Of a stretch of 38,808 nucleotides of DNA, positions 1,343-20,020 are shown piece by piece. Origin of the DNA: a virus; IMG/VR virus record IMGVR_UViG_3300045051_000613, positions 1 to 38,808 of that record. One strand, given 5' to 3'. The notes beneath the pieces were generated by a model. That model saw nothing but the letters and a program-made list of their open reading frames with translations. It made no database searches and was not told the DNA's origin. The stretch's first letter is position 1. Every line of letters begins with the position of its first letter. The position numbers were made by a program, and so were the translations under genes.

Positions 1343-3349
1343 TTACCGGCCTCCACCAATGGAATGGTCAAGGGCGTGCTGGGAAAGCGGGGCTTGCTGT
1401 TGCGCGGCCCCGGGATGTTCGGTCCCGGGCGGCACCATGGACGGGATGGGCGGCTGCATCGGCTGCGGCGGGGCATTCGCGGCCCCCGCGAGCAGCTCGG
1501 GATGGCCGATCTGCAGCGCGAGCGTCTGCTGAAGGGCCGTCGGGTCGATCTGGAAGCCCGATTGCTGCAGGAGTGAGACGACCATCGGGTTGGTCAGATC
1601 CTCGGCCTTGAAACTGAGCGAAATGCGCGGCTTTTCGGGCGGCGGGGCCGGCGGCTGCTGCAAGTGCCGTGTGGGATCTTCGCCAAAGGCCGCATAGACG
1701 TCTTTCAGGCCCTCCATGCGGTTATTGAACGGGTCATTGGCCGTGAGCTGATAGCGATCGAGCGCCATTTTGCGCTCCGTCGTCTGATCGAGCCGTTTGG
1801 CGCTGTCGGGTTTGACGCCGTAGACGAATTTCCCCGGCACCGTGAGTCGGTTCCACGCCTGCATCTTTTTGGCCCCGTCCTGACCGGCCAGTTCCACGTA
1901 ACTGGTGTCGTCTTCGTAGAGTTGGATGAGGCCGCCCAGCGCCGAGACGATACTCACGAACCAGCGGAGCACTTTGTCGCGTTCCTTGTCCAAGCGCACG
2001 TCGGTGGCCTGGTTCATGTAGGTGAGTTCGGTCGCTGTTTTGCTCCCTTGCTCGGTGATGCCACTTTGGTTCTGTCCAAGCGCCCAGGCGCGATCGATGT
2101 CGCGCATGGAGATGTCGCTCGCGACGGACGTGTCGCGCGGGAGTGTGGGCAACGCGATCATCTCGATGATTTCGTGCGGCACGCCGTCGGTGAGAATGAT
2201 CGACTGCACTTCGCCCTGTTCGAGTTTGGCAATCGTCGCCGGATCGATGCGGCCTCGGTCGACACCGCGCATCGGGAGCGCGCGCCGTTTCTGCTGCATC
2301 TGAATCGTGCGCGTTTGGCTCAGTTCATCAACCGCCGGCCTCGACATCTGGCAATCGGACTTCGGGAAATGACTGTCGGGCGTGTACCTGAGCGTCAGTA
2401 CCTTGATGGGGAAGCCCTCGACGCCGATGAGACCGCCGGTCGCCGGATCGATCCGCTGATAGGGCGAATCTTCGTGGACGCGCGGCTGGTCTTCCTCTTC
2501 CACGAGCACGAGGTGACGCACGAGGCGGCGATCGGTCACGGCCGGGTCGATGCGGTAGGCCCAGTACCAAATTTCCGTGACGGCTTTGCCTGGGCGGCCG
2601 ACGTGATGGGCTTTGGTGTCGACGAGCAGATCCTCGTCGTACCGGCTGCCCTGATCGGTCGCGGGCGGGTGCACATCGGAGAGGCTGTTCAGTTCCTCGT
2701 CGCCCACGAACGACCGGAACCCGAGCCAGTCGGCCTGCTGGTAGTTGCTCCTGATGAACCCGGACGGGATAAGGAGTTTGGCGGGGCTCCCGCGCTCGAT
2801 GTAGTAGCAACTGTGGCTGACGACGGGCGGCTGGCCAGGCGCAGCGGGCGGCTGAACGCTCGCCGTGTAGCCGACTTTCACCCACGCGATGCCGGCGGGG
2901 CAGATGACGTCCGACAAACACTCATCGACGGCTGAGAGGGCGTCGGTTTCCTCGGGCCCGAGTTTCTGGTTGAGCACGGCATTGAACACGGGCACGGCGG
3001 CGGCCGACTCCGGGTTGCGCGCCGTGAGCACGACTTCGGGGACTTTGTAGAAGAGTTGCGCCTTCTTCTGTTCGGTCTTTTCGTAGTCGATATTGACTTG
3101 CGTCGTCTCGCGCTGTTCGAACCCGTACGCCTGATGGTAGCCGCCCATGTAGCGTTTGAGGTTCTCGCGCCAGTTCCCGAGTTCTTTTTTGACTTCGTCG
3201 CGAGCCGCGCTGATTTCCCCGCGCCAGAACGTGAGCGAGCCGACGCCCTCGGCCGGCAGCGGCAGGATCGTCGTCTGCGGCAGGACGGGTTCGGCCGGCA
3301 CCTCTGGCATCCCCATCATCGCGGGGTCATCAAGTGTAAGCGGCGTCAT
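1343..3349 (-). CDS. Portal protein
   Basis: This 668-residue protein would form the dodecameric portal ring at one capsid vertex, through which DNA is packaged and ejected. Support: its size, its place just downstream of the large terminase, and a portal-like N-terminal half with a helical start (ENLKRYMGGYHQAYGFE), the segment QLFYKVPEVVLTARNP, and CPAGIAWVKVGY followed by a clip/stem-like region. The C-terminal 80 residues are Pro/Gln-rich (PPAPPPEKPR and later) as in podovirus portals with an extended barrel. The chosen ATG at 3349 overlaps the stop of the upstream gene as ATGA; an in-frame extension upstream lies inside that gene and is rejected. The family is inferred from pattern and context, not a search. 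Confidence 0.88.
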   Translation of the reverse strand: MTPLTLDDPAMMGMPEVPAEPVLPQTTILPLPAEGVGSLTFWRGEISAARDEVKKELGNWRENLKRYMGGYHQAYGFEQRETTQVNIDYEKTEQKKAQLFYKVPEVVLTARNPESAAAVPVFNAVLNQKLGPEETDALSAVDECLSDVICPAGIAWVKVGYTASVQPPAAPGQPPVVSHSCYYIERGSPAKLLIPSGFIRSNYQQADWLGFRSFVGDEELNSLSDVHPPATDQGSRYDEDLLVDTKAHHVGRPGKAVTEIWYWAYRIDPAVTDRRLVRHLVLVEEEDQPRVHEDSPYQRIDPATGGLIGVEGFPIKVLTLRYTPDSHFPKSDCQMSRPAVDELSQTRTIQMQQKRRALPMRGVDRGRIDPATIAKLEQGEVQSIILTDGVPHEIIEMIALPTLPRDTSVASDISMRDIDRAWALGQNQSGITEQGSKTATELTYMNQATDVRLDKERDKVLRWFVSIVSALGGLIQLYEDDTSYVELAGQDGAKKMQAWNRLTVPGKFVYGVKPDSAKRLDQTTERKMALDRYQLTANDPFNNRMEGLKDVYAAFGEDPTRHLQQPPAPPPEKPRISLSFKAEDLTNPMVVSLLQQSGFQIDPTALQQTLALQIGHPELLAGAANAPPQPMQPPIPSMVPPGTEHPGAAQQQAPLSQHALDHSIGGGR

Positions 3350-3624
3350 GGCTGTGGCCTTTCGCCTGCGACCCACTGTTGTCGCTCGTGGCGGGTCCAT
3401 TCCTTTTCACGGACGGCCTGTTCCTCGGCCACAGAGAGCATGGGCACCCGATCGTGATTGAGTTTAGGGACGAGCACCTCATGGATCTCGACGGCCCCGG
3501 TCAAAATGTCGACTCTCACAGAGAGGAGTTGACCATGGGGTAGCTCGTGCATGCTTTCGAGTGCGCGGCAGCCACTTTCGAGCGCCTTGGCGAAGGGATG
3601 ATCGGCGGGCAGATCGAGCGTCAT
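3346..3624 (-). CDS. Small acidic protein between terminase and portal, unknown
   Basis: 92 residues, beginning MTLDLPADHPFAKALES. A central strand-rich part (GQLLSVRVDILTGAVEIHEV) is followed by a charged helical C-terminus (SVAEEQAVREKEWTRHERQQW). The stop overlaps the portal start by four bases, so the two are translationally coupled. No known domain is recognisable. Its position suggests a packaging or portal-assembly accessory, which is an inference from context only. Confidence 0.7.
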   Translation of the reverse strand: MTLDLPADHPFAKALESGCRALESMHELPHGQLLSVRVDILTGAVEIHEVLVPKLNHDRVPMLSVAEEQAVREKEWTRHERQQWVAGERPQP

Positions 3625-3627
3625 GAC

Positions 3628-3762
3628 TTATTTCTTGCTCGTCGACTTGCCGGCCTTACTGAGGGCAATCGCGACGGCTTGACGCTGTGGACGGCCTGCA
3701 GCAATCTCACGTTTGATGTTGGCGCTCACGACCTGCGGACTCGATCCTTTACGAAGCGGCAT
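3628..3762 (-). CDS. Small basic phage protein (DUF6496-like)
   Basis: A 44-residue product beginning [16 protein letters not shown] and continuing with a basic helix ([21 protein letters not shown]) and a Lys/Ser tail. The pattern M-P-(K/R)-x-G-x-S, followed by I-(K/R)-x-x-x-x-x-G-(R/K)-P-x-x-Q-A-V-A-I-A-L, is that of a widespread small phage protein often annotated DUF6496 and often found near terminase and portal genes. Its basic nature fits nucleic-acid binding, but its function is not established. It overlaps the end of the terminase gene by 14 bases and stops four bases before the next start. Confidence 0.75.
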
Positions 3763-6241
3763 AAGAAGCTCCTTTGTGGGCTTGTTCGCGCAAATACTGA
3801 ATGTCCCAGGCGACCGAGCCCTTGACGGGCGGCTTCAGGGCTTCCGATCGCGGCGGACCCGGGCGAGAATTCGCGCCGTACCGCCACGCGTCGGCGCAGT
3901 TGTGAACCAGGATGCCGTTGGCGACGAACTCAGGGCATCCGTCAACCGTGAGGTTGTAAATCGGGACGGGCTGCGCATGTTGCGCGACGTCGATGGCCCG
4001 CACATGACAGGGAACAACAGACCGTGGGGAAATAGCGATTACACCGGAAGACCGTCTGGCAGGACGCGCAGATGCGATCTTCGTCATCGAGTCGGCGAGC
4101 CCGTCGCCATGCAGACTTGCAATTGTTTGAGCAAAACTTCCCACGAAGGGTGAGCGTCTCGTACGCCCGGCTGCACTGAGCGCAGATATTTGGGCGAGGT
4201 CGCCGCTGGCCGAAGACGACCAGTCCATGAGCCCGATGCCAAGCCCGACCTTCGGGCGAGCGTTGCCACGCCACGGCGTCTCGAACAAACCGCGCGACAT
4301 TCGCCGGACTCGGGCGACGGCCTTTGCCATGCTCGCTGAGATGGTCGAAGGCTGGCACGCACGCGAGATTGTCGAGCGCGTTGTTTTTGGGATTGCCGTC
4401 GCGATGGTGGATGTGATGGCCTGGTGGAATCGGTCCCACCAGCCGCCGCCACTTGGCGCGCGCATCGCGGTGACACCAGGAGAGGTCTGGTCGCATAAGA
4501 GGTCATCTCCGACGCATAAGAAACTCAGCCATGTAAATCCGTTCGCCTGCGCCACAGGATGCCTGGCCGTACCGGTGAGGCACCGTCCGTCACTGGTGGT
4601 GAGCGTCCATGTTTCCTGCGTGACGCCGGTTTGCCCAGCCCAGATGACAGATTGCCAGCCATCGCGCGTCCACACTTCCGCGCCAGGTCGCACTTCATCG
4701 ATCCGTTGTTCACCGTTGCGCGTCGTGATCATCGTGTCGCCGACGAGACAGTGGTCCTCGCCGTCACTATTCACATCATCGGCATCGTGTAGTGACTGCT
4801 CTTGAATGGGAATGGTCCGCAGAAAGTAGCGGCACGACGGGTCGATCGTGAGCCACGGGCGACCATCTGGCGCGGTTCGCAGCAAATCGTGGCAATTCTG
4901 CCAGCCGTTCTTGCCGCGTTGATTATCGGCCCGCCGCATGGGCAATCCGACCTTGCGAAACGTCTCGACAATGGCTTTGCCGTGGTCCTGGCCGGTTTTG
5001 TTCCACATCGAGGGGTCGGCCGCGACGTACCGGAGCCGTCCCGTGTCGGTCAGAAGACTCCGCGTCACGTCCATCATCTTCACGGCCACGTCCACCGGGT
5101 CTTCGCGGCTGCCTTTCAACTCATACGCGATGTGCAAGTGCTGATCGGGGAGCACAGCCCACCAGAGCACGACGTACGGTTGGTTGAACCCCCAGTCCAT
5201 CGACGCAAACCACTCAGTCCCACGCGGCACCGCCACCTCTCTGACGTGCCACGGGCGGCCGTTGACAAACGACTTGAACGCGCCGAAGAATGCGCCCTCG
5301 AACACGCTCCAATCGCCTTCAAGGAGTTGCGATCGACGCGGCTCGGGCATCTGGTCGAGGTTGTCGCGGTAGGTCAGATCAATGTACGGGTTGTCATCGA
5401 CCTTGGCTTGGACGAAGGTGTGCCACTCGGGCTTGTACTTCGGGTAAATGTCGGGATTGGGCTGTTTGGTGATGAAGAAATCGCGCACCCAGAGCGCACC
5501 TCGGGGCCCTGGGTTACTCGCCGCCCACACTTTCGGCCCGCCGAGATGCTTCATGACCTCGGGGTTCGACGTGCGCGCGCGAGAAAACAGTTCGATCATG
5601 TCGCCCTCGTCGTAGGTGACGAGTTCGTCGGGCACGATCACGTCGTATTCGCGCGACAGGTACCCTTCCTTCGCGACTTTGTCGTCCATATGGCCGCCGA
5701 CAATCGTCGCCCCCGTCTGCGGGAAGTACATGCGCCGTTCGCCCCGGTTGTATTTCGCGCCAAAGAGGGCCGCATCGCGCTCCATGTTGAGCAAATGCGT
5801 CTCTTCGAGGTCTTTGTAGTTGGCGCGGATGATGATCGCGCGCAATCCCTTGACCGTCAGGCACACGCGATACAACCCCCAGCGCAAGACATGCGATTTC
5901 GCGCCTCCGGCCGCGCCACCATAGAGGGTCCGCACGAATTGCCGTTGCGCCTGGAAGAATTCGACCTGCCGGGGCGTGGGCAAAAACACCTGCCGCATGA
6001 CGCCGCCGTGATTGATGGCAATCCCCCACGCGTACTGGCGTTTGACACACGCGGGCGTCGGGCATTCCCACTGGCCGGTGGGCACGGACTGAAAATGCGC
6101 CCCGCACCAGCAGCAGGTCGCGTGCGGATGCGTGAACACGCCCGCCTTGGCCTCGACCGCCTTCGGGACTTGTGGCGTAGGGAGCGGCGGGGGCGGCGGG
6201 ACCGCCCCTTTTTTGCGCCGGCCGGAGCCTTTGCCGCCCAA
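3749..6241 (-). CDS. terL: Terminase large subunit with in-frame intein
   Basis: This 830-residue precursor is the ATP-driven DNA-packaging motor and headful nuclease. The N-extein (residues 1-497) has a Cys-pair region (CCWC and CPTPAC, residues 43-65), Walker [10 protein letters not shown] (108-116), Walker B VIVPDE (201-206) and coupling motif ASNPGP (241-246). The RNase-H-like nuclease has D349 (SMDWG) and D409 (AADPS). A 284-residue intein follows H497. The C-extein (49 residues) begins CADAWRYG, so splicing would rebuild D-H-C-A-D, the H-x-x-D nuclease motif. The mature enzyme would be 546 residues, normal for the family. The only usable start is TTG at 6241, since an in-frame TGA lies two codons upstream; the start MGGKGSG is common in phage terminases. 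Unspliced protein should lack nuclease activity. Confidence 0.93.
3899..4750 (-). other. Intein inserted in the terminase nuclease motif
   Basis: The intein runs from Cys1 (codon 4750-4748) to Asn284 (codon 3901-3899) and is followed by a Cys+1. Block A is [13 protein letters not shown], block B includes GTARHPV with the usual T-x-x-H, and blocks F/G are [11 protein letters not shown] and ANGILVHN, with the standard penultimate His and terminal Asn. These are all the residues needed for class 1 protein splicing. About 84 N-terminal and 25-30 C-terminal residues are recognisable, matching a mini-intein splicing domain. The roughly 160 residues between them, rich in Ser, Ala, Arg and Thr, resemble no domain, because this stretch is the off-frame reading of an HNH endonuclease gene. 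The insertion separates H497 from the catalytic Asp of the C-extein. Confidence 0.9.
3942..4496 (-). CDS. HNH homing endonuclease nested out of frame inside the intein
   Basis: 184 residues in the -1 frame relative to the terminase/intein. The motif [19 protein letters not shown], then [16 protein letters not shown], is a textbook HNH (H-H...N...H) of intron/intein-associated endonucleases. Two Cys-rich fingers follow: CAQC with FCSNNC, and CASC with CCSLSC, probably DNA-recognition modules. It has its own ATG at 4496, with GGAG about ten bases upstream, and stops at 3942, inside the codons for the intein's last splicing block. It would cut intein-less terminase alleles and spread the intein. 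The alternative is an ancestral in-frame endonuclease displaced by two compensating indels, or assembly errors at both junctions. Confidence 0.82.
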   Translation of the reverse strand: MRPDLSWCHRDARAKWRRLVGPIPPGHHIHHRDGNPKNNALDNLACVPAFDHLSEHGKGRRPSPANVARFVRDAVAWQRSPEGRAWHRAHGLVVFGQRRPRPNICAQCSRAYETLTLRGKFCSNNCKSAWRRARRLDDEDRICASCQTVFRCNRYFPTVCCSLSCAGHRRRATCAARPDLQPHG

Positions 6242-15807: not shown

Positions 15808-16553
15808 CGGCCTATTACTCAGAGCACGACGCGGGCGCGGCCGCGTGGCTCAGGGAGTTGATCGCGGATGGACAGATACCTGCCGGACACGTCGATGACC
15901 GCGACATCCTCGATGTCTGCCCCAACGATCTGGCCGGGTACACGCACTGTCATTTCTTCGCGGGCATCGGCGGTTGGGCGCTCGCTCTTCGACTCGCTGG
16001 ATGGCCCGACAATCGTCCCGTCTGGACGGGCTCTTGCCCCTGCCAGTCATTCAGCGCGGCAGGCGCGGGACGCGGGTTTGTGGACGAGCGGCACCTTTGG
16101 CCGGCATGGTTCGACCTCATCGCGCGGTGCCGTCCTCCGGTCGTCTTTGGTGAGCAGGTTGAGGCAGCGATTGGGCACGGCTGGCTCGACCTTGTTCAAG
16201 ATGACTTGGAGGGAATCGGTTACGCCGTCGCGCCGGTTGGTTTACCTGCTGCGTGCATCGGTGCGCCCCATGCCAGGCAGCGGCTGTGGTTTGTGGCAGA
16301 CACGGGGTGGACCGACACCGACCGCTGTGAAGGCGACTGGCGGGATATCCGTGTGTCGATTCGGAGGCAGCGGGGTGAGAAAGACCATGAAGCGATACCT
16401 CACCCACCGCGAAGTCTATGGGCCGATCAACCCCGACCTCCTATCGTGGCTCATGGGATTTCCGCCAGCGTGGAACTTGTGTGCGGGTACGGTAATGCGA
16501 TTGTCCCGCAAGTCGCGGCGGAAGTGATTGCCGCCTACATGGAGATTGCTTGA
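15804..16553 (+). CDS. C5-cytosine DNA methyltransferase
   Basis: 249 residues from GTG 15804. It transfers a methyl group from S-adenosylmethionine to C5 of cytosine. Motif I is HCHFFAGIGGWALALRLAGW, motif IV is the catalytic TGSCPCQSFSAAG (PCQ cysteine), motif VI is FGEQVEAA (the E of the ENV motif), motif VIII is APHARQRLWFVA and motif X is GYGNAIVPQVA. The order is normal, but the region between VIII and X is short, so target recognition must be compact; this is common in phage enzymes. No cognate restriction enzyme is near, so it is a solitary methylase, probably protecting the phage from host restriction. The GTG overlaps the previous stop. Confidence 0.9.
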   Translation: MTAYYSEHDAGAAAWLRELIADGQIPAGHVDDRDILDVCPNDLAGYTHCHFFAGIGGWALALRLAGWPDNRPVWTGSCPCQSFSAAGAGRGFVDERHLWPAWFDLIARCRPPVVFGEQVEAAIGHGWLDLVQDDLEGIGYAVAPVGLPAACIGAPHARQRLWFVADTGWTDTDRCEGDWRDIRVSIRRQRGEKDHEAIPHPPRSLWADQPRPPIVAHGISASVELVCGYGNAIVPQVAAEVIAAYMEIA

Positions 16554-16554
16554 G

Positions 16555-18012
16555 ATGCGACTCACCCTCATCGACCTCTCCTCTCTCGCTTTTCCCATCT
16601 GGCACATGGGCCAGTCCGACCCCAACCCCAACGTGGTCAGCGACCAGCTGGTGGCCCGGGTCCGCGCGCTCGGGGACGAGCACACCGCGATCTGCTGTGA
16701 TGCCGGCCGGTCATTCAGAAACGACGTCAGCGCCGACTACAAGGCCAACCGCAAACCCGAGGAACGGGCGACGTTGTACCACCAGATTGACCTGGCGCTC
16801 GACCGGCTGCGCGGCGATGGGTTTCCCGTCTGGTTCGTCAAGGGCTTCGAGGCCGACGACATCATCGCCTCGGCCTGTAACCGTGCGGCTGAAGATGGCC
16901 ACGACATCGTCATCGTCACCGCTGATAAAGATCTGCTGCAGCTGGTGACCGACCGCGAAGAGGGCGCAGGCAGTGTGGCGGTCAAGTCCATCAAGACCGG
17001 CGACATCATCGATGAGGCGGCGGTGGAAGCGCGCTTCGGGGTGGTGCCGCGTCAGATGCGCGACTGGCTGACCATCGTCGGAGACGCGAGTGACAACGTG
17101 CGCGGGGTGGCCGGCATTGGCGAAGTCGGCGCAACCAGGCTGCTGCAGCAGTACGACTCGCTCGACGCCATCTACACCCGCCTCGACACGCTCATCGCTG
17201 AGAAGGACATCAAACCGTCACAAGGGATCGCGCTCAAAGCCTTCGAAGTGCGCCTCGCGGAAGTTCGCACACTCATCACCCTTCGCACGGATGCGCCCGT
17301 CGCGTTTGAAGAAATTCTCGAACCTCGTACCCCAAAGGATGTACCGCCCATGGTGGATGAACCTGTGCTCGAAGACGCTGCCCCAGACGACATCGACGAG
17401 GCGTTGCCCAGCGTGCCGCCGCCGCCTGCGCCCGCAACCATCACGCCCAAGCCGGCGACCGTGCCGCCGGTCACCGGCACGCTCACAGTCATTCCCAATG
17501 GTCATCCGGTCGTGGACTGGAAAACGCAACTGGAGCCAACGTCCATGAGCGAGGCCATCAAACTCGCAGACCTGGCGTTCCACAGCAAGCAGTTCGGGGC
17601 GTACGGCACGCCGCAGGCCGTCCTGATGTCGCTGCTCGCCGGCCGGGAGTTGGGCCTCTCCGCGATGGCTTCGCTCCGTGCCATCAACATAATTTCGGGT
17701 AAACCCACGATGGCCGCTGATCTGATGCGGGCGCTCGTGCTGAAGTCTGGCGCGGTGAACTACTTCCGCTGCGTCGAGCGCACCAATGAGTCCTGCACCT
17801 TCGAAGCGCAGCGCGGCGACGATCCGCCCATCTCGCTCACCGTCACCATCGAAGACGCGCGCCTGGCGGGCGTCATCAAGCCCGACAGTGGATGGGTGAA
17901 GTACCCAGCAGACATGTTGTCCGCTCGCGCGTCATCAAAACTCGCACGCCTGATCGCGCCCGACGTCTTGCACGGCATCTACACGCCGGAAGAACTGCGA
18001 GAAAACCCATGA
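16555..18012 (+). CDS. FEN-type 5'-3' exonuclease fused to a RecT-like annealing protein
   Basis: 485 residues in one frame. Residues 1 to about 255 are a 5'-3' exonuclease/flap-endonuclease domain: D7 (LTLIDLSS), D49 and the arch-side SADYKANRKPEE, metal ligands E99, D101, D102 (FEADDI), D124 and D126 (TADKDL), D177 and D180 (VGDASDN), with the DNA-binding GVAGIGEVGATRLL. Residues about 256-326 are a Pro/acidic linker (PSVPPPPAPATITPKP). Residues about 327-483 match RecT-type single-strand annealing proteins: SLLAGRELGLSAMASLRAIN, IISGKPTMAADLMRALV, WVKYPADMLSARASSKLARL and GIYTPEEL. Such exonuclease and annealase partners are normally separate genes. The fusion would resect ends and load the annealase on the exposed strand. 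It overlaps the next gene (ATGA). Confidence 0.85.
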   Translation: MRLTLIDLSSLAFPIWHMGQSDPNPNVVSDQLVARVRALGDEHTAICCDAGRSFRNDVSADYKANRKPEERATLYHQIDLALDRLRGDGFPVWFVKGFEADDIIASACNRAAEDGHDIVIVTADKDLLQLVTDREEGAGSVAVKSIKTGDIIDEAAVEARFGVVPRQMRDWLTIVGDASDNVRGVAGIGEVGATRLLQQYDSLDAIYTRLDTLIAEKDIKPSQGIALKAFEVRLAEVRTLITLRTDAPVAFEEILEPRTPKDVPPMVDEPVLEDAAPDDIDEALPSVPPPPAPATITPKPATVPPVTGTLTVIPNGHPVVDWKTQLEPTSMSEAIKLADLAFHSKQFGAYGTPQAVLMSLLAGRELGLSAMASLRAINIISGKPTMAADLMRALVLKSGAVNYFRCVERTNESCTFEAQRGDDPPISLTVTIEDARLAGVIKPDSGWVKYPADMLSARASSKLARLIAPDVLHGIYTPEELRENP

Positions 18013-18470: not shown

Positions 18471-18801
18471 CCACACGCACGTCTGCGCCACCTGCGGAGC
18501 CACCTACGACTGCGAGGGCGAGTGGGTGGAGGCCGAACAAGCCGACGGGTACCTGAAGGCCGTCTGCTACTTCTTCCATCTGCAGGGGATAGACAAGTGC
18601 GGCCCGTGCGAAAACAAGCGCGGCGAACTGTCCATGGATCTCCACTGCATGCTGGCCAACCCGCACTTCGGAGTCATTCGCCGGTTCAGCGAGGACGACT
18701 GGATGGTGGTGTTCGATGAGCCGGTGGCTGGGCGGCACTGGCGCGGCACGAGCCTCGCTGATGTCGTCCAGAAATGGCGCGACCAGTATGACGCCGCGTA
18801 A
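18457..18801 (+). CDS. Small zinc-binding protein, unknown
   Basis: 114 residues, beginning MTHSSHTHVCATCGATYDCE. CATC at the N-terminus and KCGPCENK about 40 residues later give two CxxC pairs, as in a zinc ribbon. The C-terminal half has a strand-rich part (FGVIRRFSEDDWMVVFDEPV) and a final helix (LADVVQKWRDQY). It overlaps the preceding gene by 14 bases. A role in DNA metabolism is suggested only by the operon. Confidence 0.65.
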   Translation: MTHSSHTHVCATCGATYDCEGEWVEAEQADGYLKAVCYFFHLQGIDKCGPCENKRGELSMDLHCMLANPHFGVIRRFSEDDWMVVFDEPVAGRHWRGTSLADVVQKWRDQYDAA

Positions 18802-18877
18802 TACGACGCGGCTCCTCGGGCTCATCGGTCTCGCCTTGTTTGCTCTGGGTGTGCGCGTCGTTCTGGAGGGCGTGTTC

Positions 18878-20020
18878 ATGAGCCTGATACGCGCCGACGC
18901 GCGGCAGTTGCCGATCGCCGATGGCGTCGTGCACTGCTGCGTCACAAGCCCGCCGTACTTCGGGCTGCGGGACTATGGCACGGCCACATGGGACGGCGGC
19001 GACCCAGCCTGCCCGCACGCCGTGCGGCGATGGGACGGGCCGAAGCAGACGCAAGGGGCAATGAGCGCGCACGCGGCCAAAGCGGATCGGCTCGACCGGC
19101 GCGAGTGCATGTGCGGAGCACGGCGCATCGACCAACAGATTGGGCTGGAGGCGACACCGGCCGCCTACATCGACACGCTCGTGGCGGTGTTCCGTGAAGT
19201 GTGGCGCGTGCTGGCTGATGACGGAACGTGCTGGGTGAATCTTGGCGACAGTTACGCGGGTAGCGGTCCATCGGGCGCGTCGTACCAGTCTGAAACGACA
19301 AAGCGACGGGCGGGACTGGCAGTTGATGGCGCGTTCCGAATTAGTAAGCGGCTCGGGCCGCGCGGGTTGAGTTATGCCGAGAAGAAACCGGTCGCGCCAG
19401 TGGGTTGGAAATCGAAAGACCTGCTGATGATGCCCGCACGTCTGGCGCTCGCGCTCCAAGCCGACGGCTGGTACCTGCGGAGTGACATCATCTGGGCGAA
19501 GCCCAACCCCATGCCAGAGTCGGTGACCGACAGGCCCACGAAGTCGCACGAGCATCTGTTTTTGCTCACCAAAGCCGAGCGGTACTACTACGACGCGACG
19601 GCGATTGCGGAACCGGCAAACCTGACCGGAAAAGGGAACGCGCGTTCATTCCGTGGCGGAGGCGCGTATATCCAGAATCGCAGCTTCGACAACGATGCGA
19701 CCGTCGCGAGAGAGACGCACGGGAACATCGTCCCGACGCTGCCCACGGAGCGCAACAAGCGCGACGTGTGGACCGTGCCGACGCAAGCCTATGCGGACGC
19801 GCACTTCGCCACGATGCCCGAGGCGCTCGTCGAGCCGTGCATCCTGGCGGGCTGTCCACTCGGCGGCCTCGTGCTCGACCCGTTCTGCGGCACCTTCACG
19901 GTGGGCGCAGTCGCCGCCCGTCTCAGCCGCCGCGCCGTCGGCGTCGATTTGTCCTACCAACACCTGGCCGCTGAACGTACCGCGCAGCGCGGCCTGATGT
20001 TCGCGGAGGCCGTCTCATGA
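18878..20020 (+). CDS. N4/N6 DNA methyltransferase (beta-type)
   Basis: 380 residues. The catalytic motif IV TSPPYFGLRDYG lies near the N-terminus (residues about 24-35) and the SAM-binding motif LDPFCGTFTVGAVAARLSRR near the C-terminus, the beta-type order of N6-adenine/N4-cytosine methylases. A Cys-rich insert (DPACPH and ECMCG) lies at about residues 45-85. The segment DIIWAKPNPMPESVTDRPTK is typical of the PF01555 group. ATG 18878 has GGAGG eight bases upstream. An in-frame extension to 18788 would add a hydrophobic N-terminus and overlap the previous gene, so it is less likely. With the C5 enzyme it could give two methylation patterns. The last four bases overlap the next gene. Confidence 0.9.
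   Translation: MSLIRADARQLPIADGVVHCCVTSPPYFGLRDYGTATWDGGDPACPHAVRRWDGPKQTQGAMSAHAAKADRLDRRECMCGARRIDQQIGLEATPAAYIDTLVAVFREVWRVLADDGTCWVNLGDSYAGSGPSGASYQSETTKRRAGLAVDGAFRISKRLGPRGLSYAEKKPVAPVGWKSKDLLMMPARLALALQADGWYLRSDIIWAKPNPMPESVTDRPTKSHEHLFLLTKAERYYYDATAIAEPANLTGKGNARSFRGGGAYIQNRSFDNDATVARETHGNIVPTLPTERNKRDVWTVPTQAYADAHFATMPEALVEPCILAGCPLGGLVLDPFCGTFTVGAVAARLSRRAVGVDLSYQHLAAERTAQRGLMFAEAVS

Follow-up and report, generated by a model that had tools for sequence, protein, structure and literature searches.

An HNH endonuclease gene nested out of frame within the large-terminase intein of a metagenomic virus

The window, by which we mean the whole stretch of viral DNA that was analysed (IMG/VR virus record IMGVR_UViG_3300045051_000613, positions 1 to 38,808; 38,808 nt), carries a gene for a phage large terminase (terL) that is interrupted by an intein. 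Inside the DNA of that intein lies a gene for an HNH homing-type endonuclease, read in a different frame. Descriptions of inteins normally have the endonuclease fused in frame to the splicing domain. The features of the locus, all on the minus strand, are:

3749..6241 (-): terL open reading frame (ORF), precursor of the large terminase (ATPase and nuclease) split by the intein; phrog_979 2.4e-31, phrog_2 4.1e-28
4751-6241 (-): N-extein of terL
3899..4750 (-): complete intein of 284 codons at DH^CADAWRY (Cys1 to His-Asn, followed by a +1 Cys)
4481..4750 (-): N-terminal splicing half (Hint), residues 1-90, predicted local distance difference test (pLDDT) score ~97
4507..4510 (-): GGAG, a Shine-Dalgarno-like (SD) site 10 nt before the HNH ATG, with an HNH-frame TGA (4503-4505) in between
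3942..4496 (-): HNH homing-type endonuclease gene, 184 aa, with HNH_3 and two zinc ribbons, in another frame than the intein
4028..4480 (-): intein-frame residues 91-241, a predicted disordered and stop-free reading of the HNH-coding DNA, pLDDT ~39
3899..4027 (-): C-terminal splicing half (blocks F/G), residues 242-284, pLDDT ~97
3749-3898 (-): C-extein of terL

The terL ORF comprises 830 codons with no interruption of frame, so that the host ORF stays open across the insert and the intein is contiguous rather than divided between separate ORFs. The intein has exact boundaries (Cys1, a TARH block B, a C-terminal GILVHN and a +1 Cys) and sits in the C-terminal nuclease motif of the terminase (DH^CxDAxRY). 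Matches to TIGR01443 and Hint_2 in profile searches fall in the intein frame, which places the splicing blocks in frame with the terminase; splicing blocks, the Cys1, TxxH, Asn and +1 residues, and the Hint fold are all present. A preliminary description, made from the letters of this DNA, had put a terminase intein at 3899-4750, and these coordinates proved to be exact. A group I or group II intron is ruled out as the identity of the insert, as no Rfam family reached its gathering score in the window and the host ORF is open across the insert. The insertion does separate the His from the Asp of the DHxxDAxRY nuclease motif, as was described, and splicing may thereby gate DNA cutting by the terminase through the putative catalytic Asp.

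The HNH gene is offset from terL by 1745 nt (mod 3 = 2) and hence occupies a different frame. It starts at an ATG at 4496 behind a weak SD (GGAG, 4 nt), its frame is closed upstream by the TGA three codons ahead of that ATG, and its own stop codon (TGA) falls at intein residue 269, so that the gene ends inside the intein. Family matches in this frame were HNH_3 (8.8e-12) and phrog_15471 (1.5e-27), with all HNH and zinc-ribbon residues intact. The anatomy in the preliminary description (an HNH that is out of frame with the intein and has an ATG of its own, a ribosome-like site and a stop within the intein) was thus borne out, albeit with a weak SD, and its figure of about 160 off-frame codons was right, the model of the intein frame having 151 disordered residues.

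In that model (AlphaFold (AF2), run on the intein-frame alignment) a Hint fold at pLDDT ~97 (residues 1-90 and 242-284) is interrupted by 151 residues at ~39 (91-241). Foldseek matched the model to the gp41-1 intein (TMt 0.88, 1.9 Å) and also to DnaB and RecA inteins; among inteins of solved structure, gp41-1 and NrdJ-1 are the closest. The HNH frame, modelled with AlphaFold, folds at pLDDT 92, and its best structural match, a weak one, is I-HmuI. Sequence searches of the PDB returned no match with the HNH profile and no solved relative of the intein-less terminase. In the window, as in all relatives with the same arrangement, the HNH is neither in frame with the splicing domain nor part of one polypeptide with it. 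The element is therefore a variant of a mobile intein, neither a classical fused-endonuclease intein nor a split intein.

Since the virus record behind the window is metagenomic, and two single-base indels would locally be enough, sequencing or assembly errors might have made an ordinary in-frame HNH intein appear out of frame. Relatives were gathered by scanning IMG/VR (with the HNH and with the HNH alignment), GTDB genomes and phage records, and 155 HNH loci were classified. Intein halves were found with profiles over translations in which stops were read as X, which makes detection independent of whether the frame is open. The 155 loci divided into 105 nested loci, 13 with both halves but with stops or frame changes between them, 2 with a mini-intein and the HNH after it, 30 with no intein detected and 5 partial ones (mostly at contig ends). 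Both halves thus lay in one open frame around a homologous HNH at 105 of 118 intein-flanked loci, and the HNH was in the intein frame at none of the 118. All 105 nested loci had the HNH at the same non-intein offset (the intein codon starts at HNH codon position 2). These loci come from viral, phage and prophage or metagenome-assembled genome (MAG) contigs from many samples, span 30-64% guanine-plus-cytosine (GC) content, and include the named phages Tetrasphaera TJE1, Acinetobacter Highwayman and Rhodobacteraceae LS06-2018-MD07. Errors could not produce this constancy, nor could they create the stop avoidance described below. The 105 relatives rule out the indel explanation, whose probability we regard as negligible, and the nested arrangement is confirmed as real. 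By its own terms, the preliminary description would have been overturned by single-base indels or by relatives whose HNH was consistently in frame; what was found instead was 105 out-of-frame loci at a single offset and none in frame.

The nested inteins are also uniform in their splicing residues. Cys1 is present in 105/105, TxxH in 101/105, the terminal Asn in 104/105 (the remaining one is cut by a contig end) and a +1 Cys or Ser in 104/104 readable cases. The HNH stop lies inside the intein in every nested case, at a median of 55 nt from the intein end. An HNH in the intein frame would need the loss of that stop, and in the remaining off-frame the number of stops usually ranges from several to about thirty. 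The one universal offset may therefore reflect the frame that is cheapest to keep open, or alternatively common descent of the nested form. Nested loci were also seen in archaeal- and Bacteroidales-binned contigs (L157, on the Thermoplasmatales archaeon MAG chromosome CP070724; L152, Methanomethylophilaceae; L156; L158), which are presumably proviruses.

Constraint on the intein frame was measured on a distinct set of 89 nested HNH genes (<80% identity). Their intein frames hold 0 stops where 274.9 were expected, and only 6.7 of the 89 loci were expected to be stop-free by chance. As "nested" is itself defined by the absence of stops between the halves, the fair comparison is that 89 of ~101 distinct intein-flanked loci are stop-free versus ~7 expected. 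The same frame was not kept open in the controls, with 124 stops versus 124.7 expected in intein-less free-standing homologues and 72 versus 62.0 in HNH genes between split-intein halves. Avoidance was strongest in AT-rich loci (0 stops versus 177 expected for the 44 nested loci below 45% GC) and can be read in single codons: NTA before a purine was used in 0/186 cases in nested HNH genes and in 90/148 in free-standing ones. Only loci with a contiguous intein are thus under this constraint. The window, which is GC-rich, would be unremarkable by itself, with 1.3 stops expected and none in ~21% of draws in which synonymous codons were redrawn (P ~0.21); the significance of its open frame comes from the family, for which a chance open frame is ruled out.

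The selected frame switches where the HNH begins. Between close pairs of loci (six in all), differences in the N-intein were distributed 97/67/210 over intein codon positions, and those in the HNH region 132/115/227 over HNH codon positions; over this same stretch 188/975 HNH residues had changed, compared with 291/962 intein-frame residues. These data bear on whether the HNH frame is no more than the relic of an endonuclease now dead, leaving an intein that alone matters. Mobile inteins do lose their endonucleases, and one close relative of the window (L081) has lost its HNH. That loss took the form of a deletion, however, and in the window the motif residues are all kept in a frame with a confident predicted fold, while relatives show a third-position excess in the HNH frame. 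We consider a dead remnant very improbable.

Our preferred reading, to which we assign a probability of about 85%, is that the window holds a mobile intein whose homing endonuclease is a separate out-of-frame gene in the linker of the splicing domain, and that the HNH is translated separately and drives homing. Ribosomes starting at terL would translate the entire intein into one precursor, in which the Hint halves would fold and the 151-residue off-frame stretch would form a disordered loop at the usual place of endonuclease insertion. The intein would then excise itself in cis to leave an intact terminase. Ribosomes starting at the internal ATG (4496) of the same message would make a free HNH/zinc-ribbon endonuclease, which would cut intein-less terL near DHxxDA, and repair templated by the allele with the intein would copy intein and endonuclease together. 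Selection acts on the intein-frame protein at both ends, on the HNH-frame protein in the middle, and on the intein-frame middle only for the absence of stops. Separate expression would decouple the level of endonuclease from that of terminase, as the preliminary description had it.

Alternatively, -1 ribosomal frameshifting, with no internal initiation, might yield the endonuclease as an N-intein-HNH fusion. The offset is that of a -1 slippage, and many loci have a weak SD. The TGA three codons before the ATG of the window, however, would confine slippage to the last codons before it or later, and no slippery heptamer was seen by eye at 4480-4510. An ATG with an SD of at least 5 occurs in the HNH frame at 17/90 distinct loci, compared with 2/90 and 0/90 in the other frames, an enrichment that supports internal initiation while falling short of proof. 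Furthermore, the N-intein of the split-intein relatives ends at its own stop, with the C-terminal half on its own ORF. Frameshifting therefore appears improbable.

Several points weigh against a separately translated homing enzyme. Expression, splicing, internal initiation, DNA cleavage and homing are all steps that we infer: splicing because the residues are intact, the HNH-deleted form keeps them and isolated phages need a working terminase, and cutting and homing because of family, fold and distribution. Many HNH starts have no SD or only a weak one (that of the window has 4 nt), and the N-terminus of the window HNH is short, with 27 residues before HIHH versus ~45-65 in most relatives. The frame-switch test rests on those six close pairs, and the HNH phylogeny is too poorly resolved to root or to count origins.

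Mobility itself is well supported, since the intein is distributed patchily, some sites are empty and a deleted form exists, in agreement with the preliminary view of a mobile element. Insertions occupy three neighbouring points in the terminase motif DHxxDAxRY, namely DH^xxDA (as in the window), DHx^xDA and xxDA^xRY. The last of these was seen in L082 (77% identical to the N-extein of the window), whose out-of-frame HNH intein lies three codons downstream of the window site. L083 and L087, with terL 79-80% identical to the N-extein of the window, are intein-less. In L081 (92% identical in the terL N-extein) the same intein lacks 414 nt, or 138 HNH codons, removed in frame; the remnant is a 146-aa mini-intein with its splicing frame intact. 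Among phages, Highwayman (Acinetobacter phage) has the nested form, and the terminase of phage BP10 is uninterrupted, with a free-standing homologue beside terS. A patchy pattern of this kind is the trace that homing leaves.

The adjacency of free-standing homologues to terL or terS (in PAE1, EauM-23 and BP10) also raises the alternative that the HNH is an accessory of terminase packaging and not a homing enzyme, with terL merely its location. HNH packaging proteins are known, according to a passage in PMC10448857 that cites Kala et al. Close relatives of the window (L083-L088), however, package without the intein and have no good HNH match in the flank examined, and patchy presence together with three adjacent insertion sites in one motif suggests mobility, as does the fold match, though weak, to I-HmuI. 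A packaging accessory thus seems unlikely, if the least so of the alternatives considered. A free-standing homologue was also noted between terL and the portal gene of Salmonella phage Shemara (L101, 2845-3435), on the opposite strand.

The family takes several forms: the HNH beside an intein-less terL, the HNH after a terL with a mini-intein, nested (105), split (13) and HNH-deleted (L081). The second of these was observed in L025 and L049 (~3308-4462), where a homologous free-standing HNH gene directly follows a terL with a complete mini-intein. In the 13 split loci, or fractured terminases, the N-terminal intein half (IntN) ends 94-133 codons after Cys1, mostly 94-104, and this usual end is the point where the disordered stretch begins in the window model. 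The C-terminal half (IntC) keeps the nested-type frame relation to the HNH in 11/13 of them, and IntN varies. One is Lactobacillus phage CL2 (L094, NC_028835; 506-2774), whose record lists TerL and HNH as separate genes; the frames are those of a fractured terminase, with TerL-IntN (ending at 1954), the HNH and then an unannotated IntC-TerL (ORF to 2774). In the other twelve (L018, L062, L063, L066, L107, L135, L154, L155, L159, L160, L162 and L163), too, the ORFs that carry IntN, the HNH gene and IntC are separate or interrupted. Fractured genes, reportedly described by Dassa et al. in 2009 (cited in PMC10448857) as split inteins whose halves flank an endonuclease gene, have this same layout of a separate endonuclease gene between IntN and IntC; the window and 104 other loci differ from them in being contiguous (cis), with one DNA read in two frames.

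We tentatively propose, at somewhat less than even odds, that mobile inteins with an endonuclease nested out of frame form a class that is widespread among the phages and prophages of both bacteria and archaea, and that this state is an intermediate linking free-standing HNH genes with mini-inteins and with split inteins. Were this so, a stop tolerated in the off-frame linker would oblige splicing to go in trans, and split inteins could have arisen directly in this way. In the HNH tree, nested, split and free-standing forms are interleaved, requiring 16 changes for "nested", of which the starred branches force at least 2, in a tree that is unrooted and of low support.

As in classical full-length inteins such as PI-SceI, the Hint fold is broken by an endonuclease stretch just before the C-terminal ~40 residues (PMC6801210), and the Cys1/TxxH/HN+1 chemistry is shared. 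Unlike in those inteins, where the endonuclease is in frame and in the same polypeptide, it was in frame at 0/118 loci here, and the linker is a nonsense protein. Mycobacteriophage TerL inteins also interrupt phage large terminases, some encoding active endonucleases, but they lie in the N-terminal ATPase domain rather than in the C-terminal DHxxDAxRY motif with an HNH hidden out of frame (PMC5050341); no mycobacteriophage was among the phage records matched by the window HNH. The closest published concept found is the ShiLan domain, or Pacc40 insertion, an out-of-frame HNH in phage DNA methylases (Arsenault, Gosselin, Gogarten 2025, PMC11855218). It resembles the present element in its out-of-frame HNH, which also occurs in the third frame, in its patchy distribution, and in that how the hidden HNH is translated is unexplained; it differs in having no splicing domain and is thought to remain in the methylase, which is non-essential (PMC11855218). 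The HNH of the window, by comparison, lies in a genuine terminase intein with a splicing domain, in a family of ~90 distinct sequences for which stop avoidance could be quantified. No intein with an out-of-frame endonuclease was found in the literature, in a search that covered few subscription or non-commercial-licence papers, and the nested layout is apparently an undescribed way to build a mobile element.

With the endonuclease as an overlapping gene in ~90 distinct sequences, its output can in principle be set independently of terminase levels and of splicing. Such nesting may represent a pre-fusion stage of intein invasion, and the route that it offers to split inteins can be tested. As an example of overlapping coding it is unusually clean: selection on one of the frames is solely against stops, and the free-standing and split homologues, which show no such constraint, serve as built-in natural controls. 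These Hint domains, which are related to the gp41-1 split intein, appear to tolerate an arbitrary linker of 150 residues, which may be of practical use. As a consequence of the nesting, the phage records examined name such genes "terminase" or "HNH", never both.

Two further features of the window were noted. An N6/N4 DNA methylase (18716-20020, +) has a profile match of 345 residues for 215 profile positions, and a second hidden HNH was considered there and rejected, no HNH-like ORF being apparent on reading the translations of its other frames. A 494-aa ORF (16528-18012, +) is an exonuclease-annealase fusion, in which a 5'-3' exonuclease (PF02739, PF01367) is combined with a RecT-like annealing domain (phrog_561).
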